Shown here piece by piece: positions 905 through 25,107 of a stretch of 64,000 bases of DNA. The notes below the pieces were generated by a model. It was not told the DNA's origin. It ran no database searches and was given only the letters and a program-made list of their open reading frames with translations. Numbering within the stretch: position 1 is the stretch's first letter; each line of letters begins with the position of its first letter. This stretch comes from Pelomonas cellulosilytica (GTDB lineage: Bacteria; Pseudomonadota; Gammaproteobacteria; Burkholderiales; Burkholderiaceae_C): the NCBI RefSeq assembly GCF_021353265.1, contig NZ_JAJTWU010000008.1, forward strand, positions 144,717 through 208,716, in the 5' to 3' direction. Made by a program: the position numbers and the translations under genes.

Positions 905-1036
905 ATCCCCCGACGACCAGGACCCCGGCATCGTTGGGGTTCCTTGAAAAACGAAAGAGACAACCGCTCGGCGCGAGCCGATGCGAGATGCGGCCCGACA
1001 GGGCCAAGGTTTCCCACTCAAGAGGAGCAAACGAGG

Positions 1037-4177: not shown

Positions 4178-4182
4178 TCGAC

Positions 4183-4237
4183 AGCCGGGTTTTCCCGGCT
4201 CCGGACGGGCCTGGCGCTCTCGCGTCGGGCCTTTTTT
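4183..4237 (+). terminator. Intrinsic terminator after the TonB receptor gene
   Basis: Two hairpins follow the stop codon. The first is AGCCGGG-TTTT-CCCGGCT at 4183-4200. The second, at 4208-4231, is a 10-bp stem (with two G-U pairs) closed by the loop TCTC and followed directly by TTTTTT at 4232-4237. This is a textbook Rho-independent terminator and separates the receptor gene from the halogenase pair. Confidence 0.88.
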
Positions 4238-4292
4238 GTTAGTGTGCGCAGCAAAGACGCGCCCGTCGCAGGGCGGCTTCAGGAGACACAAC

Positions 4293-7390: not shown

Positions 7391-7733
7391 GCACCCGCTT
7401 GCTCGGGGCGGAGGCGGCTGGGTGCCGGCCTGACTCCTTGCGTGCTGCTGCATCGGCAGCCCACGACGGCGGGCGGGGGCACGCAGCTGCAGGTGTCTTC
7501 GCCGTCCAAGCTCTCATCGTGAGCCTGCGCCTGTGTCGTTGACACAGGCGCAGGCTCCACGTCAACGCGCGTCGCAAGCCGGCGTCACGTCAGATTGCAC
7601 TCTGAGGCAACAAGCCGTGTCTTGCGGGGCAAGCTGCTGAAGGAGGCGACCCTACATTGACAGCATTGGCCGAGAAGCCAGACGTGACGGTCCCCGCGGC
7701 CTCCATGAATCGACAGCAATAGGTCCCACTCCA
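7391..7733. other. Intergenic region between the halogenase genes and the pmbA operon
   Basis: These 343 bases hold no convincing gene. They contain the long perfect inverted repeat listed separately and a TTGACA -35-like hexamer at 7657-7662, with no good -10 box at the right distance. A leftward open frame (7375-7560) starts with GTG inside the inverted repeat and has a Cys-rich stretch but no ribosome binding site; it is discussed under findings. Confidence 0.6.
7521..7557. terminator. Perfect 17-bp inverted repeat, terminator-like or regulatory
   Basis: The arm GAGCCTGCGCCTGTGTC at 7521-7537, a 3-nt loop GTT, and its exact complement at 7541-7557 form a perfect hairpin. No T-run follows on either strand, so it may be a Rho-independent-like pause site, an mRNA stabiliser for the halogenase transcript, or a protein-binding palindrome upstream of pmbA. 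Confidence 0.55.
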
Positions 7734-9137
7734 ATGAGCGTCAGTAGCCCGAGTCACTCCACCCAAACTGCTTCAACGGCGAGTGGCAATGGCTACCTTC
7801 TCCAGAGCGAGAGCGCGCTTGCCGAGGCGGTGACCTACGCGATCGAGCGCAGCGCCGCTCTGGGCGCCAGCGACGCGATTGCGATGGCCAGCGAACAGGG
7901 GGGGATGACCGTCACCGTCGCCGGCGGCAAGGTCGAGACCGCCGTTCGTGAGGGCAATCAGAGTCTGCGCATCACCGTCTATGCCGAGGGCCGCACCGGC
8001 GTCGCGTCGACAGAATCCCTCAGCCGCAACGCCATCGCCCGTGCCGTTGAGCAGGCGGCCGCGATGGCGCGCCAGCTGGAAGCCGATCCCGATGCAGGCC
8101 TCGCCGACCGTGCGTCTTTGGCGTGGACGACGCCGACCGTCCCGCTCTTCGCACCCTCGGATCTGAGTGCCCAGGATCTGGCCGAGGCTGCCATGGGCAT
8201 CGAAGCTGCCGCACTGTCGACGGCCAACCGCGATGAGCTGCGCGTCTCGGAGGCGGGGGCCGCGAGCCAGGACATGCGCTTCGCGCTGGCGACAAGCCAG
8301 GGGTTCTGCCGGACTGGCAGTGGCTCCATGCAGCAGCGTTGGTGCCAAACCATTGCCCAGCGCGGTGACGAGATGCGCCAAGGCAGTTGGTCGTCGATCG
8401 ATCGCCGCACCGATGGCTTGCGGCCTGGCGCTGATGTCGGTCGCATCGCCGCCAAGAAGTCCCTTGACGTGTTGGGCGCCGAAGGGTTGACCACTCGACG
8501 GGTGCCGGTGCTGGTCGACGCACCGGTAGCGGCGAGCCTGGTGCGTGAGATGTGCTCGCAGCTGAGCGGCGCAGCACAGTTCCGGCGCCTGACGTTCTTG
8601 CCCGATGCCGTTGGACAACAGCTGACCGCTTCGCACCTGACGCTGGAGGAAGACCCTTTCGAGCCGTTTGGACTGGCCAGCAGCACGTTCGATAGTGAAG
8701 GCGTGCCGGGCATTCGCCGTGCGGTTGTGCGTAGCGGGGTGGTCGAGGGGCTGTTCCTGGACACCCGCATGGCGCGCAAGCTGTCTCGGACTTCCACTGG
8801 AAATGCCGGCGGCATGCGCAACCTCACCTTGACCAGCGCCACCACCCAGGCGGGCGATGACTTGCCAGCCATGCTGCGCAAGCTGGGCACCGGCCTGTGG
8901 CTGACCCGCTTCATGGGCGGCGGCAGCAATCCGGCCACCGGCGTCTATTCGCAGGCGGCGGCTGGCTTCTGGGTCGAGAACGGCCAGGTCGTGCGCCCCG
9001 TCCACGGTTTCACGGTCGCCGGCAACCTGCAGGACATGTTGAAGGCCATCGTCGCGGTGGGCGCCGACGTGCACCGTGAGGGCGCGATCCGTGTCGGTTC
9101 GATCCTCTTTCCTGATCTGCAGATCGCCGGACGCTGA
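7734..9137 (+). CDS. pmbA: PmbA/TldE family metalloprotease subunit
   Basis: This 467-residue protein is the TldE/PmbA half of the TldD-TldE heterodimeric protease. In E. coli that complex degrades unfolded peptides such as CcdA and removes the leader of microcin B17. The family pattern is clear: an N-terminal U62 domain (GGKVETAVREGNQSLRITVYAEGRTGVAST) and a C-terminal half with MGGGSNPATGVYSQAAAGFWVENG. As expected for TldE it has no HExxxH zinc motif. The ATG at 7734 has AGG about 10 bp upstream. It is first in an operon with tldD, trxB, trx and a gene of unknown function. A specialised peptide substrate, separate from any housekeeping copy, is inferred from the context. Confidence 0.9.
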   Translation: MSVSSPSHSTQTASTASGNGYLLQSESALAEAVTYAIERSAALGASDAIAMASEQGGMTVTVAGGKVETAVREGNQSLRITVYAEGRTGVASTESLSRNAIARAVEQAAAMARQLEADPDAGLADRASLAWTTPTVPLFAPSDLSAQDLAEAAMGIEAAALSTANRDELRVSEAGAASQDMRFALATSQGFCRTGSGSMQQRWCQTIAQRGDEMRQGSWSSIDRRTDGLRPGADVGRIAAKKSLDVLGAEGLTTRRVPVLVDAPVAASLVREMCSQLSGAAQFRRLTFLPDAVGQQLTASHLTLEEDPFEPFGLASSTFDSEGVPGIRRAVVRSGVVEGLFLDTRMARKLSRTSTGNAGGMRNLTLTSATTQAGDDLPAMLRKLGTGLWLTRFMGGGSNPATGVYSQAAAGFWVENGQVVRPVHGFTVAGNLQDMLKAIVAVGADVHREGAIRVGSILFPDLQIAGR

Positions 9138-9169
9138 TCGAGACCCCACTGCAGAAAGTACCCATCACC

Positions 9170-10636
9170 ATGCCTATGACCGCCTCCCATCGCCTGACGT
9201 TGGCTCAGGACCGGCTGCTCGTCGCCAATGACCTCGACATCCAAAATGTGCAGGAAGGCCTGTCCGGCCTGTGGGCAAGGGGTGCGGACTATGGTGACCT
9301 CTATTTCGAGTTGACGACCCGTGACTCCTGGTCGTTGGAACGCAGCAAGGTGGCGCGCGCGGCTTTCTCCATCTCGCAAGGCGTGGGCGCACGCGCCGTG
9401 AACGGTGACAACACCGCCTTTGCCTATTCCAGCGACATCAGCAGCAAGTCGATCACGGCCATTACCGCCGCGGCCCGGTCAATGCAGGCCCTTGGCCAGG
9501 ATGCGGGCGCGACGGGGCGGGGCGTGGAGATTGCCGGCGTGCCGCGCGATGCAAGTGCCTATGGAACTCTCGAGGCGGCGGGCGGCATGGACAGCATCCA
9601 GAAAGTGGCGATCCTTCAAAGGCTCGACCAGATGACTCGTGCCATGGATGCGCGGATCACAGAGGTTTCGGCCACATTGTCGGTCGAGGACTCGACCGTG
9701 CTGGTGGCGGCCTCCGACGGTACGCTGGCCGGCGATATCCGACCGCTGGTCCGATTGGACCTGTCGGTCGTCGCCGAGAGCAGCGTCAAGCGCTCATCGG
9801 GTTCAGCGGGCGCCGGCGGACGGTTCGCGCTGAGCGAGATCACCGAGGACCGGCTCGAGAAGATGGCGCAAAAGGCCACCTCGATCGCGCTCACGAATCT
9901 GGAGGCCAAACCCTCGCCCGCGGGCGAGATGACCGTGGTGCTGGGTTCGGGCTTTCCGGGGGTGTTGCTGCACGAAGCCATCGGGCACGGCCTGGAAGGC
10001 GACTTCCACCGCAAGCGGGAATCGGTGTTCAACGGCCTGATGGGGGAGCGGATCGCCTCGGCCGGCGTCAATGTGTTCGACGACGCGACGTTGCCCAACG
10101 CGCGCGGCTCACTCAATGTCGACGACGAGGGCGTGATCGGGCAGCGAACATTGCTGATTGAGGATGGTCGCCTGGTCGGGTTGATGCAGGACAAGACCAG
10201 CGCCCGGATCATGCGCGAAGCCGCGACGGGCAATGGGCGCCGTCAGTCTTATTCGGATCTGCCGATGACCCGCATGACCAACACCTTCCTGGAGGCAGGT
10301 CCTTACGACCCACAGGAGATCATCGCATCGGTCCGCCATGGCATCTATGCCGTCGAGTTCAGTGGCGGCACCGTCGACATCACGTCAGGTCAGTTCAATT
10401 TCTCGGCGGAAAAGGCCTTCCTGATCGAGAACGGCAGGGTGACGGCGCCCATCGAAGGAGCCACGCTGATTGGCGTGGGCAACCAGACGCTCAAGTCCAT
10501 TTCGATGATTGGCAACGACCTGGCGTTGGATGCCGGCGTGGCGACTTGTGGCAAGAACGGCCAGATGGTGCCGGTGGGCGTGGGCCAGCCGACGATCCGG
10601 ATCGATAACGTCGTCGTGGGCGGCGCGGAGGGTTAA
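9170..10636 (+). CDS. tldD: TldD family zinc metalloprotease
   Basis: This 488-residue protein is the catalytic TldD subunit. The zinc-binding HEAIGH lies at residues 268-273 in the stretch GVLLHEAIGHGLEGDF, and the family C-terminal region with CGKNGQMVPVGVGQPT is present. With PmbA it should form the TldDE peptidase in the cytoplasm, threading unfolded peptides into a central chamber. It begins 32 bp after pmbA, and trxB follows 3 bp after its stop. An alternative ATG at 9176 is two codons in. The tldE-tldD adjacency is itself unusual for Proteobacteria, where the housekeeping genes are often unlinked, which fits a dedicated locus. Confidence 0.92.
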   Translation: MPMTASHRLTLAQDRLLVANDLDIQNVQEGLSGLWARGADYGDLYFELTTRDSWSLERSKVARAAFSISQGVGARAVNGDNTAFAYSSDISSKSITAITAAARSMQALGQDAGATGRGVEIAGVPRDASAYGTLEAAGGMDSIQKVAILQRLDQMTRAMDARITEVSATLSVEDSTVLVAASDGTLAGDIRPLVRLDLSVVAESSVKRSSGSAGAGGRFALSEITEDRLEKMAQKATSIALTNLEAKPSPAGEMTVVLGSGFPGVLLHEAIGHGLEGDFHRKRESVFNGLMGERIASAGVNVFDDATLPNARGSLNVDDEGVIGQRTLLIEDGRLVGLMQDKTSARIMREAATGNGRRQSYSDLPMTRMTNTFLEAGPYDPQEIIASVRHGIYAVEFSGGTVDITSGQFNFSAEKAFLIENGRVTAPIEGATLIGVGNQTLKSISMIGNDLALDAGVATCGKNGQMVPVGVGQPTIRIDNVVVGGAEG

Positions 10637-11611
<975 letters not shown>

Positions 11612-11658
11612 AGACCCCGCCGGCCCCCTCAGGGGTGCACGGCACACAAGGAAAACAC

Positions 11659-11994
11659 ATGTCCCTCCTCAAGATCACCACCGCCGACCGATTCGAGGAC
11701 GACGTGCTCAGCGCGTCGATTCCGGTTCTGATTGACTTTCATGCCGTCTGGTGCGGCCCATGCAAGGCCTCCGTGCCCGCGCTGGAAGACGCGGCGCGCG
11801 AGTTCGAGGGCGAGATCGCCTTCGTCAAGGTCGACATCGAGCAAGAGCCCAAGCTCGCAGAGACCTACGGCGTGCGAAGCGTGCCGACCTTCATCCTGAT
11901 CAAGGACCGAGAAGAAGTGGAGCGCTTCATCGGCCAGGCCTCGCGCGGCAAGCTGGCATCGGTGCTCGAACCCTATGCCGGGGGCGGCCAATGA
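11659..11994 (+). CDS. Thioredoxin (first copy)
   Basis: This 111-residue classical thioredoxin has WCGPCK (Cys32 and Cys35) and the cis-proline loop SVPTF. It has no signal peptide, so it works in the cytoplasm and is the natural electron acceptor of the adjacent TrxB. The ATG at 11659 is preferred over an in-frame one at 11635 because it gives the normal thioredoxin N-terminus (MSLLKITTADRF). Its stop overlaps the start of the next, unknown gene by 4 bp, so the two products are probably made in fixed ratio. Confidence 0.93.
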   Translation: MSLLKITTADRFEDDVLSASIPVLIDFHAVWCGPCKASVPALEDAAREFEGEIAFVKVDIEQEPKLAETYGVRSVPTFILIKDREEVERFIGQASRGKLASVLEPYAGGGQ

Positions 11995-12851
11995 CCACCT
12001 ATCGTGCCTTTGGCAATGACGCCACCAAGCAGGCTTTGAGGGCCGAGATCCGCACCAGGGGGCCGGTGTACGCCGCGTGGCTGACCACAGCGTCGATCGA
12101 GGGCGATCTGACACCGATCTCGCGGGACTATGGCCTGCACCCGGCGCTGGCCCGGCTGCTGCCTGCGCTGGGCGCCTTTGGCGAGGGCGAAGAAGCGCCC
12201 GCGTTCTATGACGCGTTGCTGGATGCCATCCCAGTCGGCGCCGAGACGGGCAACATCGCGCGCAGAGCGGTGCTTCTGGCCTGGACAGACCCCGTCTATG
12301 GCCGGGCTCAACGCGTCACGGGCGGTGCGGTGCTCGAGGCCTGCGAGGCCGTCATCGGCCTGGTGCGCCAGTCTTTGACCGTGTCGGTGGACAAGCAGAC
12401 CTGGCGGGCGGCGCGCGCGAAGCTGGCGCAGGTCAAGCGCGAAGCATCCGCGCCGGAGAAGGTGGATCTGGTGCTGTCGCTGGCCTGGGATCTTGAGCAG
12501 GCGCCCGGCGCTGTGCAGGATGCGATGGTGGCCTGGACGACGCAGCTGACCGCCGAAGCCGAGGCGGCCGATGAAGATCAGTTCACCGCGGCCGAAGCGG
12601 CGCTGTTCAAGGCGACGATGGATCGCATCAATGAAGAGATCATCGCCACCGTCAGCGACGACAGTGACGCTGAGTTTTCCTACGAAGCGTTCCTGGAAGA
12701 AGTGAACAAACGCTGGGCCGCTGACCCGGCCGGCCAACCCCTGAAGGTGCGAGCGCTGGCTCGGCAGGCTCGCGTCAAAGCCAAGCTTGCCATCTGGCGT
12801 AGCGTTATCCAGCAGAAGGTCCTGGAGGACGGGCGAGCGCTGGCCGTGTAA
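11991..12851 (+). CDS. Unknown protein coupled to thioredoxin (partner 1)
   Basis: I do not recognise this 286-residue protein. It has no signal peptide or membrane segment, looks mostly alpha-helical, and has an acidic C-terminal third rich in D and E (for example DDSDAEFSYEAFLEE). The start ATG at 11991 overlaps the thioredoxin stop (ATGA). Its N-terminus (TYRAFGNDATKQ) and a central stretch (LDAIPVGAETGNIARRAVLLAW, then W-R-A-A-R-A) resemble the protein encoded at 18567-19565 (QYCAFKGDPAHK, LDAIAVGADLGDVV, W-R-T-L-R-A). I infer distant paralogues. Operon position suggests a thioredoxin-dependent or peptide-handling role, but no function can be assigned. Confidence 0.8.
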   Translation: MTTYRAFGNDATKQALRAEIRTRGPVYAAWLTTASIEGDLTPISRDYGLHPALARLLPALGAFGEGEEAPAFYDALLDAIPVGAETGNIARRAVLLAWTDPVYGRAQRVTGGAVLEACEAVIGLVRQSLTVSVDKQTWRAARAKLAQVKREASAPEKVDLVLSLAWDLEQAPGAVQDAMVAWTTQLTAEAEAADEDQFTAAEAALFKATMDRINEEIIATVSDDSDAEFSYEAFLEEVNKRWAADPAGQPLKVRALARQARVKAKLAIWRSVIQQKVLEDGRALAV

Positions 12852-12910
12852 TACGGTTTTGCTAGCCCCAGCAGGCGGTCCGGCGGACAGGCGGGCCGAT
12901 CTCCGAACGT

Positions 12911-13822
12911 ATGTCAGTGATGCCCTCCATCATCGCCGCAGTCTTCGACAGCAACTTTCGCGGTTCACGCGAAGGTGAGGGCTGGCGTATCAGCAGCGTT
13001 CCACGTGACGTCGCGACCGTCTGCCACATCACCACGGGCGCGTTCGCCTGCTCCACCGAAGGTGTCACGAGCGCGGATGGCGGAGGCTTCTGCACGCACA
13101 TCGTCTTCTTGCGTGCCGGAAAGCTGACGGTGGATCAGCACGCCCATCAGCACAGGCTGGTGGCGGGTGACATCTTTGTGGCCTGCGGATGGCAGCCCAT
13201 GGCGCTGGCCGGAACGGGCAGGGTGGACATGCTTGTCATCACGCTGCCCGGCTGGTGGTCGATGCAGCGGTTCCTGGACAACTACCAGATCCTGCCGGAG
13301 CTCTACATCCCCGCAGCGTACTTTGCTGCTCCGATCATTGGCGACCTGGCCCAGCTGATCCTCGACCTCGACGAGAGCGACGCGCTCGCGGCGCCGCAGG
13401 CGTTGACGATGCTCGGGGACCTGCTGCGCACCGCGCTGGCCGCGGGCGCCAAGGCCGATCGCATCATTCCGCGGGCGCGTGGACGAATGGGGGAGATTCT
13501 GTGGTTCATCGCCCAGAATCTGGAGAAGCGGGGGCTCTCCGCCCCGGATGCGGCGAAGAGTCTGAAATGCTCGGTCCGTACGATCTACAACACCTGCGCG
13601 TCGCATGGCACGAGCTTCAGTGCCTTGGTCACGGAGACCCGACTCGTTGCCGCACAGTACCAGCTCATCCGGACCAACGACCGCATTTCGCAGATTGCCT
13701 ATGAAGTGGGGTTTTCGAGCCTTTCCCACTTCTCGCGGCTGTTCCGGGCGCGGTTTGGCGTCACGGCCAAGGCGATGGCCGCCGGCAACCGCGCGGAAGT
13801 CATCGCAAGTCGCTCCGCCTGA
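12911..13822 (+). CDS. AraC-family transcriptional regulator
   Basis: This 303-residue regulator has a C-terminal double helix-turn-helix AraC domain at about residues 200-295, with the second helix pattern RISQIAYEVGFSSLSHFSRLFRARFGVT. Its N-terminal half looks like a cupin-type sensor (FLRAGKLTVDQHAHQHRLVAGDIFVA). It is the last gene of the rightward operon, 59 bp after the unknown gene, and faces the leftward TonB receptor gene. It probably controls one or both operons of this locus. The ATG at 12911 was chosen; a second at 12920 is possible, and neither has a strong Shine-Dalgarno. Confidence 0.9.
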   Translation: MSVMPSIIAAVFDSNFRGSREGEGWRISSVPRDVATVCHITTGAFACSTEGVTSADGGGFCTHIVFLRAGKLTVDQHAHQHRLVAGDIFVACGWQPMALAGTGRVDMLVITLPGWWSMQRFLDNYQILPELYIPAAYFAAPIIGDLAQLILDLDESDALAAPQALTMLGDLLRTALAAGAKADRIIPRARGRMGEILWFIAQNLEKRGLSAPDAAKSLKCSVRTIYNTCASHGTSFSALVTETRLVAAQYQLIRTNDRISQIAYEVGFSSLSHFSRLFRARFGVTAKAMAAGNRAEVIASRSA

Positions 13823-13848
13823 GGGCCGTGCGAGCCGAGGATAGGGTA

Positions 13849-13883
13849 GCGCCCGCGCGGACCGTGTGGTCCGACGCGGGCGC
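13849..13883. terminator. Bidirectional terminator-like hairpin between convergent operons
   Basis: The sequence between the AraC stop (13822) and the TonB receptor stop (13896) forms a 15-bp stem with one bulged A. The left arm is 13849-13863, the loop GTGT is 13864-13867 and the right arm is 13868-13883. T-runs are weak on both sides. Its place between two facing genes supports a shared terminator. Confidence 0.65.
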
Positions 13884-13895
13884 GTTCGCTTTGCG

Positions 13896-16742
13896 TCAGA
13901 AGTGCTTGCGCACGGACAGTGTGTAGCGACGCAGACGCGGATCGAGATACGACGTCGCGCCAACGCTGTAGGCGATGGCGCTGCTGATCGTCGGCCCCTG
14001 GTTGTTGAACAGGTTGTTCACGGCAAAGGTGATGTCAGTGCCGCGCAGGATGCCGCCCGCGGCGAAGAAGTCATAGCTCACGTAAGCGTCGTGATAAAGC
14101 TGGCTCGACACTTTGCCGGCGCCCTGCCACATCTCCCACTGTTTGCAGGAAAAGTCGGAAAGCGTGGACTGGCAGGTCCGATAGCTGCCGTAGTACTGGG
14201 CGTTCCATCCAGCACTCCAGGCGTCACTGCTCCAGTCGACGCCAATGTTGCCCCGCCATTTCAGTGGGCCATCGGAGAAACCGGCACGATCGACCGCCGG
14301 AACGCCGGGCGTCGTGCTGCGGCTCAGCTCCTTCGTATGGGTGGCCGCCGCGTGCAAGCGCAGCTGGCCCAGCGCGTCATTGGTCAATGTGTATTCGGCC
14401 TGGAGGTCGAAGGCCTTGAGCCGGCTGCTTGCCACATTGAACAGCGTCGAGTCGATCTGCGTGATCGGACCAGGCAGTCCGCCCGAACCCGGCCCGCGAA
14501 CGATGCGCCCCGGGAACGCGTCTTCGCTGTCGATGAAGAAGTTCAGCGGCAGCTTGCTGACCTCATCGGTCTTGCGGATGTCTGTGTAATCTACCGACAC
14601 GCGCAGTCCCGGCATGATGCGCGGCGTCAGGATCACGCCCATTGAGGTGCTCTTCGACTTTTCCGGCCTGAGCGACGAGCTGCCGCCGGCGAGCACCGTC
14701 AGCGGCCCGGGAATGAGCGCGTTGCCCAGTTTCGGATCACGCAAGTCAAGCAGCGAGATGAGGAATGATGGGAACAGTGTCGGTGCTGAGCTGCGGATCT
14801 GCCCGAGGTCAGGGGGCAGGAAGCCCGTGCCACGGCTGGCGCGCAACGTGATGTCGCGCGTTGGCGCATAGCGCAGGCCCAGCGTATTGCTGGTGGAGCC
14901 AAAGCTGTTGACCGTGGCCGTTTGAGGTGGGAACGGGCCGCTCGCGCTGTCGACCTCGATAGACGATCCCGAATATTCGGTCCGGTAGCCATCGTGGCGA
15001 ACCGAGACCATCAGTTCCAGCAGGTTCGCAAACGGAACGTCGTTGCGGGCCGAAATGACCGGCGCGCGGAGCTCCAGATACTGGGAGTCGACCTTCCGGC
15101 GGGCTTCAGGCGTCCAGCGGAACGTGCTGGCGCCACCCGTGTCACTGGTGTTCACTGAATCGTCGCTGGTTTCATCGCGTCGTTCCAGAAGGGCGGTGGC
15201 GGTCAGCTTGCCGCCTGGAAGATCAACGACCGGACCGCTCAGCCGCAGCGACAGCGTCTTCAGGGTGTTGCCCATGTCACCGCTCTGCTTGAAGAGCGAT
15301 AACAGAGATTCCGCGTTGCTCAGAGGCGAGGCAAGAAGATCGCGGAACACCGCAGCCTGAAGTGTCTCGTCCGCGGCCGGTGACGCGGCCCCGAGGACCG
15401 TGCTGTTGGTGCTGGAACTGGTGCTGCGCAGCCAGCCATAGTCCACCACGGCGCTCCATTGGTGAGGAAGCCGCGCAATGGCGCCGGCATAGACCCGGGT
15501 ATTCGTCAGCGACTGTCTTTGCGTCTGCTCGCTGGGCAGGGTGAGGTAGGAGAGCACATCCTGCTGGAATGGGTTCACCGATGCGCTGGCCGGCACATAC
15601 TGGAGGATCTGCGACGGCGACGAGAGGACGTCTCTGGAGTGGTCGCGCGCGAAGTCCACATACGCCTCGATGCCGGGGCTGAACTCGCGACGCGCATTGA
15701 CGGTGAATGTGTTGGTCTCGGGCGCGGACCAGATCGGCACGCCAGCTCTGTCGAATTGGAGCTGGCCCGCCTTGTCCGTCAGCGCCGCACCACCGTCGCT
15801 GGCAGCGCCCGTGTATTTGGCAGGAATGCTGGTGAACGCCGAGCCCAAGGAGGCACCGCTCTTGAGCTGCAACGACTGGGTGGAGCATGTGGTGCCGTCC
15901 TCGGTCGAGCAGATATTGGCGCCCCCCAGCATGACACTGGGATCGGTCGGATCGTTGCGCAGCTGCTGCTGCGCGCCCCGACGGGCAAAGTTTCTCTGCG
16001 TCGACAGCAGGAGGTTGCTGTTGGCATGCGACGCAGAGAACAGCACGCGCGTCTTGCCTTCTTCCAAAGAGAATCCGCCACTGATGCCCAGCCTGTTCTG
16101 GCCGACGCCACCATTGAACGCATTGCCGTAGCTGGCTTCGACGTCGAAGCCGGAATAGTCGCGCTTGAGGATGATGTTGATCACACCGCCTGTCGCGCCA
16201 CCGCCATAGATGCCACTCGCCGTCGCCGGCAGGATCTCGATGCGCTCAATCTGCGAGATCGAGATGCCGTTCAGGTTGGCTTGCCTGAAGGAATCACCCG
16301 TCGAGATGCTGGGAAGACGGCGCCCGTCGACCAGGATGAGGGTCTGGTCAGATCCGAGGCCACGCAGGTCGATGCGTCCTTCAGGAGAGACCTGGGGGCC
16401 TAGCTGCGGGTTCGTGGTTTGCTGCGCATTCATCGGTAGATTGGCCTGCAGGAAGCCTTCTATCGTCTGTGCGCCGCTCTTGGCAATCTGCTCCGCATCG
16501 AACACCACGTAGGGTTGGATGTCATCGCGGTTGCGGCGAATGTCCATGTTGAGTGTGCGCTTGCCGCGCACCAGGATCACAGGCATCACTTCGTCGGCGG
16601 TGCGCCCGTCGGCGTCGGCCTTCGACTTGGTCGTACTGGCCTGATCCTGCGCATGCACCGTCGCGCACAGCGCCATTCCCATGGCCAGATTTCCCAATCC
16701 CATCAGCGTCCGAAGACGTCCGCCTTTAACGACAAATCTCAT
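13896..16742 (-). CDS. TonB-dependent receptor of the thioredoxin/TldDE locus
   Basis: This outer-membrane receptor has about 948 residues: a signal peptide (LAMGMALCATVHAQ), a plug with RGLGSDQTLILVDGRRLPS and the IERIEILPATASGIYGGGATGGVINIIL signature, and a barrel ending in a C-terminal Phe (TLSVRKHF). The ATG at 16742 is preferred because AGAGG lies 9 bp upstream; ATG 16751 is also in frame. It is the last gene of the leftward operon, 22 bp after the SbmA/BacA-like transporter gene. That pairing suggests one ligand crossing both membranes. Unlike the receptor at 1037 it has no carbohydrate neighbours; a peptide or cofactor ligand is inferred. Confidence 0.9.
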   Translation of the reverse strand: MRFVVKGGRLRTLMGLGNLAMGMALCATVHAQDQASTTKSKADADGRTADEVMPVILVRGKRTLNMDIRRNRDDIQPYVVFDAEQIAKSGAQTIEGFLQANLPMNAQQTTNPQLGPQVSPEGRIDLRGLGSDQTLILVDGRRLPSISTGDSFRQANLNGISISQIERIEILPATASGIYGGGATGGVINIILKRDYSGFDVEASYGNAFNGGVGQNRLGISGGFSLEEGKTRVLFSASHANSNLLLSTQRNFARRGAQQQLRNDPTDPSVMLGGANICSTEDGTTCSTQSLQLKSGASLGSAFTSIPAKYTGAASDGGAALTDKAGQLQFDRAGVPIWSAPETNTFTVNARREFSPGIEAYVDFARDHSRDVLSSPSQILQYVPASASVNPFQQDVLSYLTLPSEQTQRQSLTNTRVYAGAIARLPHQWSAVVDYGWLRSTSSSTNSTVLGAASPAADETLQAAVFRDLLASPLSNAESLLSLFKQSGDMGNTLKTLSLRLSGPVVDLPGGKLTATALLERRDETSDDSVNTSDTGGASTFRWTPEARRKVDSQYLELRAPVISARNDVPFANLLELMVSVRHDGYRTEYSGSSIEVDSASGPFPPQTATVNSFGSTSNTLGLRYAPTRDITLRASRGTGFLPPDLGQIRSSAPTLFPSFLISLLDLRDPKLGNALIPGPLTVLAGGSSSLRPEKSKSTSMGVILTPRIMPGLRVSVDYTDIRKTDEVSKLPLNFFIDSEDAFPGRIVRGPGSGGLPGPITQIDSTLFNVASSRLKAFDLQAEYTLTNDALGQLRLHAAATHTKELSRSTTPGVPAVDRAGFSDGPLKWRGNIGVDWSSDAWSAGWNAQYYGSYRTCQSTLSDFSCKQWEMWQGAGKVSSQLYHDAYVSYDFFAAGGILRGTDITFAVNNLFNNQGPTISSAIAYSVGATSYLDPRLRRYTLSVRKHF

Positions 16743-16764
16743 CTGCTTCATCCTCTGAAAAGGG

Positions 16765-18540
16765 TTAACTGATTGACGAACTGCTGACTCTGCCTCCCTC
16801 AATCCTCAGCAACTGCTGGTGAAAGGCCGAGACGCTTTCACGGTGAGCCACGGAGATGAGGGCTGCGTTGGGCAAATGGTTGACGATCGTTTGGTAGACC
16901 TTGGCTTCCGACTCGGCATCGAGAGCACTGGTGCCTTCATCGATGAACAGAAAGTCGGGCCGGCCCAGAATGGCGCGCGCTGCTGCAATCCGCTGTTGCT
17001 CGCCGGGCGAAAGGATGCGACTCCACGGCTGATAGTTGTGTAGATCCGGAATGAGCCGCTGCAGACCCAGCGCGTTCAGCAGCTCGATGTATTGCTCGTC
17101 GCTGTGGCGATCCGCCCCATGCGGATAGGCCATCAGGCTCGCGATCGATCCGTTGGGCATGTAGTTGCGCTGCGGGAGGAAGGCGACCGATGCATTGGCT
17201 GGCAGCTCCACGGACCCGCTGCCATACGGCCACAGACCGGCGATGCTGCGCAGCAGCGTGCTTTTCCCGGCGCCGGAAGTCCCTTGAACCAGCACGCGCG
17301 ATCCTGCTGCGACCTCCAGTCTGTCGAGCGTCACCATCGGCTTGCCATCCGGGAAGGTGATGGTCAAGTCATGAGCGGCAATGTGCGACGCCGGCCTTTC
17401 GCTGATGGCAATGCCACTGCCGAACGACTGCTGCGACAACGTGTCGTTCAGCAAGCGCAGACGCGCGATGGACGAGCGCCAGGTCGCGATCTCGGCGTAT
17501 TGCGTAATGAAGGCGCCGATGCCGTTGTAGACCTGGCTGAACGAGTTCCCCACAATCTGGATGTCGCCGATCTGCATGCGTCCGTCGAGCACGAACGGAA
17601 CGCATAGCAGGTAGGGCATCAGCATCAACAGGATGTCGGGAAGACCCGTGGCCACCGCGATCTTCATGTTGGCAAAGGTGTAGGTGCGCCAGTTCATGAC
17701 GATCAGCACGAACGTGTCGGCCAGCCGCCGACGTTCGAGAGGCGCTGCGCGGGCGAAGGCAATCGATTCGCCGTTTTCGCGGACAGCGTGCATCTCGGAG
17801 CGGAATTGCGCTTCGAGTCGCTGTCGAACGACTTCTGCCCGCGTCAACAACGCACCCACCCAATGCACGAGCGCGGTCATCGCCAGCGCGAAGCCAAAGG
17901 CGAGATAGACCAGCAGGCCGGGGATCGGCTCGTTGATGCCGATGGCGGGCATCACCAAGGGCGGTGAGAGCCGCCACAGCTGGCCCGTATAGAGGAACAC
18001 ACCGAACAGTGAAGCGAGGATCGATACGCCGATCAGCGTCAGCTTGTCGACGAACTGGTAGATGTCTTCCTGAATGCGCTGCTCGGGATAGTCGAGTTGC
18101 GCACGCCGCTCCAGGTGGAAGAAGTGGTTGCCATTCATCCACTTGTCCAGCAGCGTGGTGGTCAAGACCCGGCGCATGCGCATGCGAAGTGTCAGGCGCG
18201 ACCACGTGCCGATGGCGGCCAGGATGGTGGTCACGGCGCCGAACATCAGGATCTTGGTGATGATGTCCGGGATGACCGCCGCATTGTGTGCGGCCAGTGC
18301 GTTGATGATGTCCGAAAACGCCAGCTGCATCTTCAGGAAGAAGGACATCGCCAGCCCGCTGTGCGCGAACTGGTAGGCAATCAGCAGCGTGCCCATCAGC
18401 GGATCGGCCTTGACGTATTGCGCGATCAGCGATGCGCAGTACCGAAGATCGGCCCGCAAGGACTTGCCACCGCTTTCCGGCGGCATTTCGGTCTTCACTG
18501 CATCCGCTGCAGCGGGGTCTGTGATGGCGACGTCAGTCAT
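16765..18540 (-). CDS. SbmA/BacA-like ABC transporter (fused membrane and ATPase domains)
   Basis: This is a 591-residue half-transporter of the YddA/Rv1819c type. An SbmA/BacA-like membrane domain of about six segments (residues 30-350) is fused to an ATPase domain with Walker A GTSGAGKST, signature LSPGEQQR and Walker B FLFIDEGTSALD. Relatives carry peptides, cobalamin or bleomycin-like compounds across the inner membrane; SbmA itself imports microcin B17. ATG 18540 has a weak AGG 8 bp upstream. A GTG at 18570 overlaps the previous stop (GTGA) and would add ten residues. With TldDE and a TonB receptor beside it, peptide transport is the natural inference, but direction is not shown. Confidence 0.88.
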   Translation of the reverse strand: MTDVAITDPAAADAVKTEMPPESGGKSLRADLRYCASLIAQYVKADPLMGTLLIAYQFAHSGLAMSFFLKMQLAFSDIINALAAHNAAVIPDIITKILMFGAVTTILAAIGTWSRLTLRMRMRRVLTTTLLDKWMNGNHFFHLERRAQLDYPEQRIQEDIYQFVDKLTLIGVSILASLFGVFLYTGQLWRLSPPLVMPAIGINEPIPGLLVYLAFGFALAMTALVHWVGALLTRAEVVRQRLEAQFRSEMHAVRENGESIAFARAAPLERRRLADTFVLIVMNWRTYTFANMKIAVATGLPDILLMLMPYLLCVPFVLDGRMQIGDIQIVGNSFSQVYNGIGAFITQYAEIATWRSSIARLRLLNDTLSQQSFGSGIAISERPASHIAAHDLTITFPDGKPMVTLDRLEVAAGSRVLVQGTSGAGKSTLLRSIAGLWPYGSGSVELPANASVAFLPQRNYMPNGSIASLMAYPHGADRHSDEQYIELLNALGLQRLIPDLHNYQPWSRILSPGEQQRIAAARAILGRPDFLFIDEGTSALDAESEAKVYQTIVNHLPNAALISVAHRESVSAFHQQLLRIEGGRVSSSSIS

Positions 18541-18566
18541 TGTTTGCACCTGCTGCCGTGCGGCTG

Positions 18567-19565
18567 TCACGCGGCACTGGATGGGGTCGGTCCGGCGGTC
18601 TCGATCAGTCTTTGGAGGCTCTGCATGTGCCGGTGCAGCAAGCTGTCGGATTGCGACTGCGCCTGCGGCCTGGTGGCATTGAAGCGGGCCTGAACGTCCG
18701 CATGCATGAACGCGGTCACCGCCTGCTTCGTTTGCGGGTCACGGTCCAGCAGCGTTTCGGTGGGCAATTGCGACAGCTCGGGATCGCGCTGGGCGCGGAC
18801 CAGTTCTCGAAGCCCGACCAGCGACTTCATCAGGATGTCCCGGTCCTCGCTGGTGAGGAAAGGGGCGACAAGGAACTGCCGCACCTCCTTCATGAATAGC
18901 TGGAAGATCGCCACGAATTCAGGCGCGAGTCCTCGGACCGGCCAGGCCAGCGATTCGACCAACTCGCCGGCGGCGTAGCTCCATGGATCGCTGTCATCTT
19001 CAGCGGCCCGCATCGCGTCGGCTCGAAGGGTGCGCCATTCCTTGGGCGCCACGGGCTCGTCTCGCATCTCGCGCTCCCACAGGGCGAGGATGCGCTCACC
19101 GCACGCGCGCACCGCCGGGCGCACATGGGGGGCCATGACGAAATCGCGTGCCAGAACACCTGACAGGAAGCCGAGCATGAAGCGTGGCACCACATCCCCC
19201 AGGTCGGCCCCCACCGCAATGGCGTCCAGCCACTTCATCGCAAACGCCATCGTGGCATCGCTGCCGCTTATCGCCAGACCCGCAGGTTTGCTCTTGTCCT
19301 CGCTGAAGTCGACACCCGCATAGACGACGCCTTCACACAGCGTCGCAAGCTCCAACGGCAAGCCGGTTCGCTCGACGAACTCGTGCGGAACCTGCGTTTC
19401 GGCCAATGTTCCCGACAGTGAGACCATTCCGCCATCCGTCCGCCATTTCAGATAGGCGAGCGGAAAGGCTCGGCCTTCCGTCCATCTGGCACGGACGCGG
19501 CCCACCATCTCGGCCTTGTGCGCAGGATCGCCCTTGAATGCGCAGTACTGTGTGAGGCCGCTCAT
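18567..19565 (-). CDS. Unknown protein coupled to thioredoxin (partner 2)
   Basis: This 332-residue protein belongs to no family I recognise. It has no signal peptide and appears helical. It resembles partner 1 (11991-12851) at the N-terminus (QYCAFKGDPAHK) and in the middle (LDAIAVGADLGDVVPRFMLGFL followed by EWRTLRADAMRAAEDD). The start ATG at 19565 overlaps the thioredoxin stop by 4 bp, exactly as in the other pair, and its stop touches the ABC transporter start region. The repeated thioredoxin-partner arrangement is the strongest evidence that this is a real functional unit. Possible roles include a thioredoxin client enzyme, a peptide-binding adaptor or a peptide-modifying enzyme. Confidence 0.8.
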   Translation of the reverse strand: MSGLTQYCAFKGDPAHKAEMVGRVRARWTEGRAFPLAYLKWRTDGGMVSLSGTLAETQVPHEFVERTGLPLELATLCEGVVYAGVDFSEDKSKPAGLAISGSDATMAFAMKWLDAIAVGADLGDVVPRFMLGFLSGVLARDFVMAPHVRPAVRACGERILALWEREMRDEPVAPKEWRTLRADAMRAAEDDSDPWSYAAGELVESLAWPVRGLAPEFVAIFQLFMKEVRQFLVAPFLTSEDRDILMKSLVGLRELVRAQRDPELSQLPTETLLDRDPQTKQAVTAFMHADVQARFNATRPQAQSQSDSLLHRHMQSLQRLIETAGPTPSSAA

Positions 19566-19903
19566 GCTTCGCCGTCCTGATCGAGGAGAGCGTCGAGTTC
19601 GCCGGCCAGGCGGGTGCGGCTGCGATCGTGCAACGTGGCCGTGGCTTCCCCCCCTTTGGTCAGAATGAGATGAGGTATTCCCTGCACATCGAACTTTTCC
19701 GCCAGTCCGGGGCATTCGTCGATGTTGACCTTGACGATCTTCAAGCTGCCGTCGTACATCGGCGCCAGCGCCTCGAGCGTCGGTAGGAGGGCCATGCAGG
19801 GACCACACCAGGGAGCCCAGAAGTCGACCAGAACGGGCGTCTCGCTGCGCGCCACTTCGGTCTCGAAGGTCGCGTCGCTGACGGGGATCACTTGTGCAGT
19901 CAT
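19562..19903 (-). CDS. Thioredoxin (second copy)
   Basis: This 113-residue thioredoxin has WAPWCGPCM (Cys33 and Cys36) and the cis-proline loop GIPHL. Met replaces the usual Lys or Arg after the second Cys, and the cis-Pro loop differs from copy 1, so its redox potential or partner may differ. ATG 19903 is chosen because AAGGA lies 8 bp upstream; the open frame runs further but without thioredoxin sequence. It is the first recognisable gene of the leftward operon and overlaps the unknown partner gene (ATGA). Confidence 0.93.
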   Translation of the reverse strand: MTAQVIPVSDATFETEVARSETPVLVDFWAPWCGPCMALLPTLEALAPMYDGSLKIVKVNIDECPGLAEKFDVQGIPHLILTKGGEATATLHDRSRTRLAGELDALLDQDGEA

Positions 19904-20545: not shown

Positions 20546-21358
20546 TCAGGCCAGGCCGCCCTGGGCCGCCCGAACGAGCAGCGCAGTGGCGATGCCACCA
20601 CTCAGGAGCGCAAAACTCCGCTGAACGAGCCGTGGCGACAACCGGCGCGCCAGCAATCGGGCGCCGATGAGAGCGCCCATGGCTGCCAGCGTGAACGGAA
20701 GCGCTACCTGCCACTGCATGTCCTGCTGGCCGGCAGCTGCCAACGCGCCTGCGGCCGACACCAATGCGATGACGGCCTGTGAGGTGCTGACGATGGCGTC
20801 GACGCGCAGATTGGACAGCCGCGTGAACGCCGGCACCAGCACAAAACCGCCACCAACGCCCAGCAGGCCACTTATCGCACCTGCAACAAGACCGATGCCC
20901 GTGAGCGCTGCGGCGCACGAGCGCGTCCAGACGAAGCGACCGGTTTTCGCACTCCAGTAGCAAACAGGCAAAGCAGGGCGCCCGGCACCGGTTCGTGCAG
21001 GCTGCTCCAGGCTGCGCCGGTACATAGTCAACGCTGACAGCGCCATGACGACCGCGAGGCTCAACGTCAGCGCTGCAGGCGGCGCACGATGCGCGAGCCA
21101 GACGCCGGCAGGCGCGACCAGCATGCCGGCGCCTCCGATCAGTAGCGCTGCGCGGTATCTCACCACGCCGTCACGCAGGCCCAACATGGCTCCCAGGGTC
21201 GCGGCAAGCGAAATGGCCACCAGCGCGATCGGCGCGGCCTGAGTCTGGGACAGGCCGGCGCCGAAGGTCAGCAGCGGGATGGCGAGAATGCCGCCGCCTG
21301 CGCCGGTCAGGCCCAACGCCACGCCCGCCAGCGCCCCGAGCAGAAGGCTGGAGAGCAC
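20546..21358 (-). CDS. TauE/SafE family sulfite/anion exporter
   Basis: This 270-residue polytopic membrane protein has about eight hydrophobic segments and two glycine-rich half-repeats typical of TauE/SafE: GLTGAGGGILAIPLL at residues 16-30 and ISGLLGVGGGFVLVPA in the second half. Family members export sulfite, sulfoacetate or related anions. It starts 6 bp after the stop of the cysteine desulfurase-MBL-rhodanese fusion gene, so it is very likely co-transcribed. Export of sulfite made by that enzyme is a coherent inference. A cytoplasmic loop of about 25 residues carrying CYWSAKTGRFVWTRSC separates the halves. Confidence 0.88.
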   Translation of the reverse strand: MLSSLLLGALAGVALGLTGAGGGILAIPLLTFGAGLSQTQAAPIALVAISLAATLGAMLGLRDGVVRYRAALLIGGAGMLVAPAGVWLAHRAPPAALTLSLAVVMALSALTMYRRSLEQPARTGAGRPALPVCYWSAKTGRFVWTRSCAAALTGIGLVAGAISGLLGVGGGFVLVPAFTRLSNLRVDAIVSTSQAVIALVSAAGALAAAGQQDMQWQVALPFTLAAMGALIGARLLARRLSPRLVQRSFALLSGGIATALLVRAAQGGLA

Positions 21359-21364: not shown

Positions 21365-23638
21365 TCAGGCGGAAACCGCGTGCCTTGAGGCCTGCTTCGG
21401 TTCAGGCCACAGCGCGACGCCGCCAGCCAGACTCACCGTGCGCTCAAGGCCGAGACGGCGCAGCGCCTGCGCCGCCTTAGCGCTGCGGTTGCCGCTGCGG
21501 CAAAACAGCACCAGCGTGGCGTCGGTTTCGGCGGCCAGCCAGCCCGGGATCGCATTGACGATCGACGACAGCGGCACGGCCTCGCGACGCACCTGCTCTC
21601 CAAGTTGCGGCGCGACGCCCAGGCGATGCTCATAGGGCTCGCGCACGTCGACCAGCACGAACCTTTCGCCGCGGTCGATCCGTGCGAACAGCTCGCTGGG
21701 TTTGAGCTCGACCGAAGCTGTCTCGCGGCAGGCGTCCACTCGCGCGCCGCAAGCCAGGGTCTCGTACTCGGTCGGTGCCAGATCTCGTTCCAGGTGGGCC
21801 TTGGCCGCCGCGAACGACTTGGCGTCCATGCTTCCCTTCAGCACCGAAGCCACGAGCGGTTGCCGAGCGATCTCGATGCCCAGCGTGCAAGCGTAGCGTT
21901 CGTCGTAGTCGTGGCCCGGCAACAGCAACGCGTCGCTACCGACGACGGCCAGCAGGTGCTTCAGGGACGGACCGTACTTCTGCGGTTCGCTTACGTCGAA
22001 GTCGCTGCGCCCCAGGGCGCCTGGCATGACGGTGTCTCCGACGAACGCCGCGCACAGTCCATTCGCGTCATGCAGCAGGTAGGCCGTGGAGTCGCGGGTA
22101 TGGCCGGGAATGTGCAGACGGCTCAGGCGCTGTTCGCCCAAGTGGATCTCCTGCGAACCCAACGGCCATCCCAGGCTGTCGCGGTCACGGAAATCGGTCG
22201 TGTCGGCCAGCACGGCGGGGATGCCCCGCCAGATGTCGGTGGCGGACGAGGCGTGGTCGCCGTGGCTGTGCGTGTCGAGCACGGCGGTGAGGATGTAGCT
22301 GCGGCAGCGGATCCATTGCACAAGCTGCTGCGTGAGCTGCGGCAGTGGATCGATGATGACGCAGCGGCGGGAGGATGAATCGGCGATGAGGTAGCAGACC
22401 GATCCGTCGACAACGTAGCGGTTGATTCGTTCCACCGGCATTGCGTTTCGCTGAAACGTCTGCGTGAGGCAGCTGTCGCGCAGCGAAGCTCCGCAGGCAC
22501 GGATGCGTTCGCAGGCCTCGTCGATCAGGCCTGACGGCGTCGCCGGGCCGAAGGACAGCCTCACGGCGGAGGCGCAGCGCCAGGCATCGAGGCCCATCGC
22601 TTCGAGGACGTAACTGGGCTTGGCCTTGGACGCGCCGCAGGCCGAGCCGCCGCTGACGCGGATGTTGGCCGCATCGAACAGGTCCAGCAGCACCTTGGAG
22701 CTGACGCCGGGCACCGAGAAGTTCAGCGTGGTCGGCAGGCACGGTGCCCGGTCGGCGTTGAAGACGATCTGTGGAAAAGCGTCGCGTAGGGCGCTTTTCA
22801 GACGCTCGCCGCAGGCGTGCAGTTCATTGGCGGACTTGAACAAGTCCCCGGTTTCGAGCAGCTCCAGCACGGCGCCCAGCGCGGCGATGCCGGGCATGTT
22901 TTCGGTCCCGGAGCGCAGCGCACCTTCTTGGCCACCGCCGGCCATCAGCGGCGTGATGGGTGCGCCCGCGCGCACGTACAGCAGGCCGATGCCTTTGGGC
23001 GCATAGAGCTTGTGGCCGGAGAAGGGCGCGTAGTCGATCGGCCGGTCTGCCAGGCGAAGGGGTAGCTTGCCCAGAGCCTGCACGCTGTCGACCATCCACA
23101 ATGCCGGGCTGCCTGTGAGCGCCGTCTGGATGCCGTCCAGGTCGCTGATGATGCCGGTCTCGTTGTTGGCCGCCATGGTGCACACCAGGCCCGCACGCGG
23201 CGCGCGTTCGCGCAACCATTGCAGGTCATGGCGGCCGTCAGGACCGACGGGAATGGCCAGAATCTGCAGGTTCAGGCGCAGCAGGTCATTCCAGTGGCGC
23301 AGCGCCTCGGGCACCGCCTTGTGTTCTGTGGCGCCGTACAGCAACAGCTGCGGCATGGGTTCGCCGCTTTCGCGGCGCTTGCGCAGTGCCGTTAGCGCGG
23401 AAAGAACGGCGGTCTGGATGCCTTCGGTGGCCCCGCTCATGAACAGCAGCTCACCGGTGGGCGCGCCCAGCACGCGCCGTGCGCGGGCGCGAACCTCGTC
23501 CATCAGGGCACGCGCCTTCAGGCCGGTGCCGTGGATGCTGCTGGGGTTCCCGTAGTCGGCCGACATGGCGGCGATGGCGGCTGCTCGGGCCTCGGGAAGG
23601 ACCGGCGTCGTGGCATTGGCGTCGAGGTAGATTTCCAT
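21365..23638 (-). CDS. Cysteine desulfurase / MBL persulfide dioxygenase-like / rhodanese fusion
   Basis: One 757-residue polypeptide holds three sulfur enzymes. Residues 1-385 are a NifS/IscS-like PLP enzyme with ATEHKAV, the PLP lysine at 210 (SGHK) and the catalytic Cys334 (GGSACGAS). Residues 400-620 are a metallo-beta-lactamase fold with THSHGDH at 456-462, His513 (PGHT), Asp535 (GDT) and His576 (PGHDY), as in ETHE1-type persulfide dioxygenases. Residues 640-745 are a rhodanese with Cys713 in CRSGNRSA. All key residues are intact. The expected path is cysteine to protein or glutathione persulfide, then sulfite, with the rhodanese relaying sulfur. The TauE/SafE gene follows at 6 bp and an Lrp gene lies upstream. 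Individual activities are inferred from motifs. Confidence 0.88.
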   Translation of the reverse strand: MEIYLDANATTPVLPEARAAAIAAMSADYGNPSSIHGTGLKARALMDEVRARARRVLGAPTGELLFMSGATEGIQTAVLSALTALRKRRESGEPMPQLLLYGATEHKAVPEALRHWNDLLRLNLQILAIPVGPDGRHDLQWLRERAPRAGLVCTMAANNETGIISDLDGIQTALTGSPALWMVDSVQALGKLPLRLADRPIDYAPFSGHKLYAPKGIGLLYVRAGAPITPLMAGGGQEGALRSGTENMPGIAALGAVLELLETGDLFKSANELHACGERLKSALRDAFPQIVFNADRAPCLPTTLNFSVPGVSSKVLLDLFDAANIRVSGGSACGASKAKPSYVLEAMGLDAWRCASAVRLSFGPATPSGLIDEACERIRACGASLRDSCLTQTFQRNAMPVERINRYVVDGSVCYLIADSSSRRCVIIDPLPQLTQQLVQWIRCRSYILTAVLDTHSHGDHASSATDIWRGIPAVLADTTDFRDRDSLGWPLGSQEIHLGEQRLSRLHIPGHTRDSTAYLLHDANGLCAAFVGDTVMPGALGRSDFDVSEPQKYGPSLKHLLAVVGSDALLLPGHDYDERYACTLGIEIARQPLVASVLKGSMDAKSFAAAKAHLERDLAPTEYETLACGARVDACRETASVELKPSELFARIDRGERFVLVDVREPYEHRLGVAPQLGEQVRREAVPLSSIVNAIPGWLAAETDATLVLFCRSGNRSAKAAQALRRLGLERTVSLAGGVALWPEPKQASRHAVSA

Positions 23639-23811
23639 AATTCGCGTCAGGAGAGCTGCCGTGTGGCTTCTTGACGCTCACTGTAGAAATCTTGGTGGAG
23701 ATCAAATTTCTCTTTGCGGTTCCAGCGGGGCTCGGTACGCAAGTGGATTGCGCCGAACCGCGAAAAAATGGAATTCCTCTTCTGGCACCTCCCGGCGGAG
23801 GGCTGCAACCT

Positions 23812-24576: not shown

Positions 24577-25107
24577 CTACGGGCAGTCCCACCCGAACCG
24601 GATCACCCCACAATGCCGGCACACGAACTTGTAGAAGGCGTTGTCACCGGCGGGCTCGTAGTCGCGCGTGGCAGCGGCCCATTGCTTCACGGTCTTGCTG
24701 TAACGCTGCATCCAATCCTCCTTTGTGGCATCGCTCGCGTCTTCCACATCCTCTTGCGAGGCGTCGCCGTGGAACTCGCAGGCATCGTTGCAGTGCGCCA
24801 GCCATTGCTCTTGCTGCCAACAGGAGTAGCCGGGCGTGCGCAGGCTGACCTCGTCCACGATGTCGGCGGCCACGCCGGCCTGCGCGAGAGGCTGCGGGTC
24901 CGAGAAGCTCGCGCGCAGTTGGCTGGCCGCAGAACCGTCGGCGATGCACCAGGGGCACAGCTTCTCGTCCAGGTCAGTGGTGGCATAGACCGGTTGCACG
25001 TAGACGAAGTCGCGCGCCTGACCGCAGCAGGCACAGGTGATCTGTCGCGGTTCGATGGCGCCCGTGGCCAGCGGATCGGGGTGGTAGCGGAAGAGAGGCA
25101 GCGTCAT
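24577..25107 (-). CDS. CbrC family protein (UPF0167)
   Basis: This 176-residue protein opens with the CbrC-type FRYHPDPLATGAIE and carries several Cys pairs (CACCGQ, CPWC, CRHCG) that probably bind zinc. E. coli CbrC is linked to colicin E2 tolerance through the CreBC regulon, but the molecular role is unknown. It stands alone between the Lrp gene and the 8-bp repeat tract, separated by a 270-bp gap on the Lrp side in which I see no other feature. Confidence 0.82.
   Translation of the reverse strand: MTLPLFRYHPDPLATGAIEPRQITCACCGQARDFVYVQPVYATTDLDEKLCPWCIADGSAASQLRASFSDPQPLAQAGVAADIVDEVSLRTPGYSCWQQEQWLAHCNDACEFHGDASQEDVEDASDATKEDWMQRYSKTVKQWAAATRDYEPAGDNAFYKFVCRHCGVIRFGWDCP

Follow-up and report, generated by a model that had tools for sequence, protein, structure and literature searches.

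The 64,000-nucleotide stretch of the Pelomonas cellulosilytica genome analysed here (the window) encodes a 757-residue protein in which a cysteine desulfurase, a metallo-beta-lactamase (MBL) domain of the persulfide dioxygenase (PDO) type and a rhodanese follow one another in a single chain, and we consider it probable that this fusion is a cysteine-induced, O2-dependent enzyme of cysteine-sulfur disposal that takes persulfide through to sulfite. The initial annotation had proposed such a three-enzyme chain, and the chain is real, with the strand now added: the plus-strand reading of 21365–23638 is interrupted by stops, and the open frame lies on the minus strand. Three Pfam matches, each exceeding its curated cut-off, divide the protein into Aminotran_5 (residues 3–368, E 1.8e-53), Lactamase_B (residues 411–571, E 1.3e-9) and Rhodanese (residues 648–744, E 3.8e-8). 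AlphaFold2 modelled the full protein with a mean pLDDT of 85.0 and a pTM of 0.83, and the C-terminal half alone with 88.6 and 0.89. A residue check and the family alignment show that all three active sites are intact in the window protein and were correctly numbered at the outset (K210 and C334; THSHGDH from T456, H513, D535 and H576; C713). There is a second copy of the fusion in the same genome, 70% identical to the first, and because the checked desulfurase and rhodanese residues are kept throughout an alignment of 86 family members, these two copies included, and the MBL motif in 66 of them, the fusion is neither a chance product nor an assembly join.

The N-terminal domain has the class-V aminotransferase fold and the residues that define the NifS/IscS family, namely a pyridoxal phosphate (PLP) lysine, an active-site histidine and aspartate, and a persulfide cysteine on a loop; these are K210, H106, D184 and C334 respectively, the last in a loop of the NifS/IscS type. 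Its best sequence relatives of solved structure are NifS/IscS-type desulfurases, led by the NifS-like 1ecx (E 8.3e-56), and the 50 structural matches listed for its model are desulfurases and selenocysteine lyases, with Z scores of 33.7–39.2. All 11 of the desulfurase residues that we checked, K210 and C334 among them, are invariant in the 86 members. Fold and catalytic residues are thus those of NifS/IscS desulfurases, but the fusion adds two further enzyme domains, and because the NCBIfam NifS and IscS equivalog models score only 264.5 (cut-off 530.75) and 186.0 (cut-off 643.2), we describe the domain as NifS/IscS-like and not as an equivalog of either.

The MBL domain contains an HxHxDH motif starting at H457, a putative iron triad (H457, H513 and D535), R544, and the sequence H576-D577-Y578. 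We assign the 2-His-1-carboxylate triad putatively, by reading these motifs against PDOs; for PaPDO, a passage of PMC12856154 gives the triad as His71/His146/Asp163. The first sequence matches of the C-terminal half are PDOs, namely MxPDO (4ysb), BpPRF (5ve3, collinear through both domains) and the Beggiatoa PDO (8zbd), and its structural ranking opens with 12 rows of PDOs and of differently named PDO-like entries, with Z scores of 19.7–22.3. BpPRF heads this list with an rmsd of about 15, presumably from a different angle between the two domains in the predicted model; we note that such lists are filled by one domain at a time, so that the absence of a family from them is uninformative. These comparisons also bear on the idea that the MBL domain is no dioxygenase but a glutathione-thioester hydrolase resembling glyoxalase II. 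A weak NCBIfam match to GloB (59.5 bits against a cut-off of 200.8) and a fold common to glyoxalase II would agree with it, but the best glyoxalase II in the ranking of the predicted model has a Z of 17.9, below the PDO rows; PDOs are the best matches in both sequence and structure, and in the alignment they share its GR-S/T-DF and HDY motifs. We have set a hydrolase aside as highly improbable, and the persulfide dioxygenase-like identity proposed in the initial annotation is upheld.

The C-terminal half (residues 413–745) is collinear with BpPRF of Paraburkholderia phytofirmans (PDB 5ve3–5ve5), in which a PDO is likewise followed by a single rhodanese with a catalytic cysteine, at about 22–26% identity in structural alignments; BpPRF has no desulfurase domain, and the fusion departs from its kind in having a further catalytic domain at the N-terminus. 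As judged from its sequence, the protein is a PDO-rhodanese fusion to which a desulfurase has been added. It could in principle act as a thiosulfate or glutathione-persulfide enzyme of the BpPRF kind with the desulfurase as a minor second input, as the collinearity and the first place of BpPRF in the structural list would suggest. However, the desulfurase is the best conserved part of the protein: mean pairwise identity among the 66 members with intact MBL domains is 68.9% for the desulfurase, 56.2% for the MBL domain and 51.4% for the rhodanese. With the 11 invariant desulfurase residues, and a neighbouring regulator that points to cysteine (see below), this makes a BpPRF-like role improbable. 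CstB of Staphylococcus aureus (in passages of PMC9774590) and Blh of the bigR operon also join a PDO to sulfurtransferase domains, and a passage of PMC12856154 notes that pdo is fused to other sulfur-metabolism genes in some bacteria, citing cases that include BpPRF and CstB. The Blh model NF040641 gives the fusion 48.6 bits, against a cut-off of 625. To our knowledge, neither CstB nor Blh has a desulfurase domain.

Relatives of the fusion were collected from three samples. A species-wide scan of one genome from each of 84,980 species, using two patterns both taken from the desulfurase domain, found at least 596 stretches and confirmed at least 560, of which the best 80 were kept, a selection that favours full-length relatives; among these best 80 are Burkholderiales (Roseateles, Variovorax, Acidovorax, Ramlibacter, Comamonas and others) and Alteromonadales (Pseudoalteromonas, Colwellia and Shewanella). 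The other two samples are free of this selection: the fusion is present in 10 of 398 genomes from an even sample of Pseudomonadota, the window genome included (E 1e-100 or better), and 25 of 100 related genomes contain 27 fusion genes (E 1e-140 or better). Three plasmid records, all from Pseudoalteromonas, also match (E 1e-100 or better). Copies labelled Pantoea sp. 18069 (L100) and Methylotenera sp. (L062) cluster on the tree with Comamonadaceae and with Roseateles copies respectively, reflecting either horizontal transfer or mislabelled contigs. The initial annotation had named a common architecture with another role already assigned as an outcome that would count against it; the fusion is not confined to this genome, occurring in those 10 of 398 genomes and in other genera, and no assigned role was found.

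The three domains have not been kept equally within the family. K210, C334, C713 and R718 are present in 86/86 aligned members, whereas the six MBL motif residues (H457, H459, D461, H462, H513 and D535), any loss among which we score as a defective MBL domain, are all present in 66 members but not in the other 20. Three of the 20 (L030–L032, 508–531 residues) lack the MBL domain entirely, and Pfam on L030 and L032 returns desulfurase and rhodanese alone; another (L118) fails only at H462 and keeps the putative triad, such that the triad alone as criterion gives 19/86 defective. In one member scored as intact (L071) all six residues persist, but R544, F547 and Y578 are gone. Nine further members from the 398-genome sample behave similarly, with K210, C334, C713 and R718 in all nine and the six MBL residues in six; L165 and L167 have a changed motif but keep the putative triad, while L168 has lost the site. 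Mapped onto the desulfurase-domain tree, the intact and defective states require seven changes, at least five of them forced by well-supported branches, and C630 in the linker between dioxygenase and rhodanese tracks the MBL state, being present in 64 of the 66 intact members and 2 of the 20 defective ones. The desulfurase and rhodanese therefore form a constant core, with the dioxygenase as a losable third step, and the rhodanese is likely, on this pattern of conservation, to be the first acceptor of the C334 persulfide even though the dioxygenase sits between them in the chain. The interpretation first offered is supported in part, in its domains, its PDO type and its link to cysteine; the direct channelling of cysteine sulfur to sulfite or thiosulfate without free sulfide stays hypothetical, and the account needs amending where the dioxygenase is decayed or missing, as in these 20 relatives.

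The constancy of this core could also be read as that of a sulfur donor, an assimilatory or biosynthetic enzyme in which desulfurase and rhodanese supply sulfur from persulfide to some product or cofactor, leaving the dioxygenase only to oxidise persulfide that leaks. The window has TonB receptors, two Trp_halogenase-family flavoenzymes and PmbA/TldD, all of which are also found in natural-product settings. BpPRF has been described as acting in sulfur assimilation (the title of Motl 2017 as cited in PMC9774590 and PMC6060420, and a sentence of PMC7785958), and passages of PMC9516567 offer a precedent in MES (metallopterin-dependent ergothioneine synthase), likewise a desulfurase fused to a user of its sulfur, with intramolecular persulfide transfer proposed; as described there, MES is biosynthetic, occurs in anaerobes, and differs in partner module and domain order. 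However, the genome already has three additional desulfurase-like genes (33–35% identity across almost the entire domain), the neighbouring regulator resembles a regulator of cysteine catabolism, and no sulfur-accepting biosynthetic enzyme was recognised among the recurring neighbours, judged by eye in groups without tool annotation. We regard a donor role as unlikely, although less so than a BpPRF-like one, and continue to favour disposal of cysteine sulfur.

That disposal begins with cysteine is suggested by the gene next to the fusion, a regulator of the Lrp/AsnC family that is 50% identical to Escherichia coli DecR over 150 residues, compared with 37% for Lrp and 27% for AsnC. The genome has nine Lrp/AsnC genes, and DecR's two best matches (50% and 49%) adjoin the two fusion copies, the next being at 39%. 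DecR (CyuR, YbaO) is described in passages of PMC9040844 and PMC11408624 as a cysteine-activated activator of an operon for a cysteine importer and a desulfidase. Matches to the window regulator in the 100 related genomes number 22 genes in 20 genomes (E 1e-38 or better), of which 20 sit 90–293 bp from a fusion match, accompanying 20 of the 27 fusion genes; by genome, 18 have both, seven the fusion only, two the regulator only and 73 neither. In one of the two regulator-only genomes (G066) the regulator lies tail-to-tail with a PLP enzyme of Cys/Met metabolism, and in the other (G054) there is no known sulfur gene among four neighbouring frames in the first 6 kb of the contig. In a wider set of 82 loci the regulator is found no more than 900 bp upstream in 42 (38 divergent, four on the same strand). 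This linkage is the strongest independent support for a mechanism of cysteine-sulfur oxidation, and it ties the gene to cysteine as the initial annotation had supposed.

From the observed domains, residues, predicted folds, regulator linkage and gene order we infer three reactions, the order of the relay, induction by cysteine and the products, taking the chemistry of desulfurases and PDOs from what is established for these enzyme families. The DecR/CyuR-like regulator would sense cysteine. The desulfurase, with PLP on K210, would convert L-cysteine to alanine, leaving a persulfide on C334, and its sulfane sulfur would pass by way of the mobile C334 loop to C713 of the rhodanese, to glutathione (giving glutathione persulfide), or to both. 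The iron site (H457/H513/D535) would then use O2 to oxidise glutathione persulfide to sulfite and free the glutathione, a reaction for which a passage of PMC12856154 sets out the equation, and the rhodanese may also combine sulfite with persulfide to form thiosulfate. At the window locus a TauE-type permease may export the sulfite, and the thioredoxin system may recycle thiols.

We searched for stand-alone PDO-rhodanese genes with the PDO-rhodanese L120, from a different genome within the order, as query. Matches were counted at E 1e-40 or better, a limit picked after the first result; the fusion genes' own matches to this query reach 3.6e-30 in the first search and 7.4e-34 in the second. In the first search, a stand-alone PDO-rhodanese was found in none of 18 genomes with an intact fusion and in three of four with a defective or absent MBL domain (G052 being without). 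The second search covered 49 genomes or records; of 66 loci listed for it, 16 with intact MBL motif residues were left out, namely L051, L059, L066, L070, L074, L078, L086, L090, L098, L101, L102, L104, L107, L111, L113 and L116. Merged on the tree, the 64 rows show a stand-alone PDO-rhodanese in 14/18 defective and 8/46 intact rows (Fisher p 1e-5, descent ignored); this comparison excludes rows of unsearched genomes, L118 (plasmid record only), L085 (truncated at a contig end), and L063 and L094 (an intact and a defective copy in one genome, with PDO-rhodanese present), and the window genome and G010 contribute two intact rows each. It is suggestive of replacement of the lost fused dioxygenase by one acting in trans.

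The genes around the fusion are listed with its domains in Table 1. Beyond the TauE/SafE-family permease, the same strand continues with a thioredoxin, a protein of unknown function, an ABC transporter resembling SbmA/BacA, and a TonB receptor. The opposite strand has a TonB receptor of its own, a pair of Trp_halogenase-family proteins, PmbA, TldD and thioredoxin reductase.

Table 1. Coordinates of the fusion gene, its domains and neighbouring features in the window.
Feature	Position	Strand	Basis and remarks
Three-domain fusion protein, 757 aa	21365..23638	-	Open frame, Pfam, AlphaFold2 model
Cysteine desulfurase domain, residues 1-388	22475..23638	-	PF00266, PDB matches, predicted fold
Persulfide-dioxygenase-type MBL domain, residues ~405-600	21839..22426	-	PF00753, PDO alignment, structural Z
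Linker, residues 601-645, with C630	21704..21838	-	Family alignment
Rhodanese domain, residues 646-747, loop C713-RSGNR-S	21398..21703	-	PF00581
Regulator-fusion intergenic region, presumed promoter/operator	23639..23811		Three imperfect inverted repeats
Lrp/AsnC regulator, DecR/CyuR-like, 164 aa	23812..24306	-	Identity to E. coli DecR
TauE/SafE-family permease, GTG start 6 bp past fusion stop	20546..21358	-	PF01925, E 4e-40, 138.4 bits (cut-off 32.6)
Thioredoxin (WCGPC)	19562..19903	-	PF00085, E 1.5e-26; start 19903 read within a longer frame
SbmA/BacA-like ABC transporter	16765..18570	-	PF06472, PF05992, PF00005
Thioredoxin reductase	10640..11611	+	TIGR01292, 381.6 bits (cut-off 343.45)

The cluster at 944–18570 (TonB receptors, Trp_halogenase pair, PmbA/TldD, thioredoxin reductase and SbmA/BacA-like transporter) partly recurs near other fusion copies. 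Matches to thioredoxin reductase lie directly behind the second fusion copy, and likewise behind the fusion in six of the 82 loci (L038, L043, L072, L095, L063 as a short fragment, and L074, where it is a partial gene read as lying behind TauE). Thioredoxin matches are also near the fusion at L169, L171, L043, L072 and L095, an SbmA-like transporter accompanies thioredoxin near the second copy (L169/L170), L038 (as L171/L172), L072 and L095, and PmbA/TldD occur near L095. Because such neighbours recur at a minority of loci, a system dedicated to recycling thiols is plausible at those loci and not across the family.

A number of other observations concern single genes. Upstream of the window regulator is a UPF0167/CbrC-family gene (24577–25107), whose 130 bits fall short of the CbrC cut-off (300). 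No homology was found between the unknown gene at 18567–19808 of the window and one at 9697–11010 of L125, likewise unknown. A TusA-family sulfurtransferase (L118, 6448–6666) lies two genes upstream of the fusion copy in Pseudoalteromonas THAF3, and a downstream gene that appears TrhO-like by eye is common to ten MBL-defective members (L087–L089, L092, L093, L097, L103, L105, L106 and L115) and the intact L084. In L096, L098, L099, L101, L102, L104, L108, L112 and L114 the sequence upstream of the fusion includes an AT-rich stretch that is roughly palindromic, its halves resembling TATA; seen by eye in several Alteromonadales and L114, it is a candidate operator for another regulator.

Several findings weigh against the reading of the fusion as a cysteine-induced oxidising enzyme. 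The regulator is not found alongside seven of the 27 fusion genes in the related genomes (G008, G009, G026, G032, G040, G047 and G052, at E 1e-38) or at 37 of the 82 wider loci, with three more ending too soon, and it stands beside only one (L116) of 16 loci from Alteromonadales and other gammaproteobacteria, though three of the 16 begin close to the end of a contig. No operator was found in the upstream regions by eye or by a search for inverted repeats (only 11 intergenic regions were extracted by the start-finding rule), and an operator common to the family was set aside, these regions differing between clades. A sulfite exporter was rejected as a conserved partner: a TauE match lies beside the fusion in one of 82 other loci (L074), in a phmmer search with the window TauE alone that divergent TauE genes could escape, and none was seen near the second fusion copy. 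The fusion reaches none of the NCBIfam equivalog cut-offs and so is no curated equivalog there. Nor is it the only PDO candidate in its genome, since a separate type II-like PDO is present (L154, G000:C24:486500-489000, 764–1642, plus strand; 406 bits to the Blh model, cut-off 625). As to replacement of the dioxygenase in trans, of the four supported independent pairs on the tree an average of 3.2 agree, 0.1 run counter and 0.7 show no difference, and the sign test is not significant, which with only four independent pairs it could not be; counting L071 as defective adds one more pair without difference.

The nearest parallel in regulation is E. coli CyuR(DecR)–CyuA, where a DecR-like regulator is likewise tied to a cysteine-degrading enzyme. 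The two differ in that E. coli decR is not adjacent to cyuPA, whereas the regulator adjoins the fusion in the window genome, and in that CyuA yields sulfide, pyruvate and ammonium and is inactive in air (as described in passages of PMC9040844), whereas the fusion would be expected to yield alanine and sulfite and to need O2. No CyuA match was found in 22 genomes searched, which is weak evidence of absence because the run contained no genome with a known CyuA as positive control. We suggest tentatively, and with the balance of our judgement against it, that the fusion serves as an aerobic counterpart to CyuR–CyuA that avoids sulfide, one enzyme carrying cysteine sulfur as far as sulfite under a cysteine sensor, and that in the window it may also form the sulfur-disposal end of an import-and-dismantle locus (TonB receptors, SbmA/BacA-like transporter, PmbA/TldD proteases, thioredoxin, thioredoxin reductase and TauE) for cysteine- or disulfide-containing peptides.

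We found no description of a desulfurase-PDO-rhodanese chain in the titles, abstract openings and passages of the literature searched, where an earlier mention is possible, and as far as that literature goes the protein is uncharacterised. Excess cysteine is toxic, and CyuA, the well-studied degrader under CyuR control, fails in air and makes sulfide, according to passages of PMC9040844. If sulfite is the end point, the fusion would give aerobic bacteria a sulfide-free route for cysteine under a regulator resembling a cysteine sensor. The joining of the three enzymes in a single chain lets intramolecular persulfide transfer be probed cysteine by cysteine, and the members with intact, decayed and absent dioxygenases provide a natural control series.

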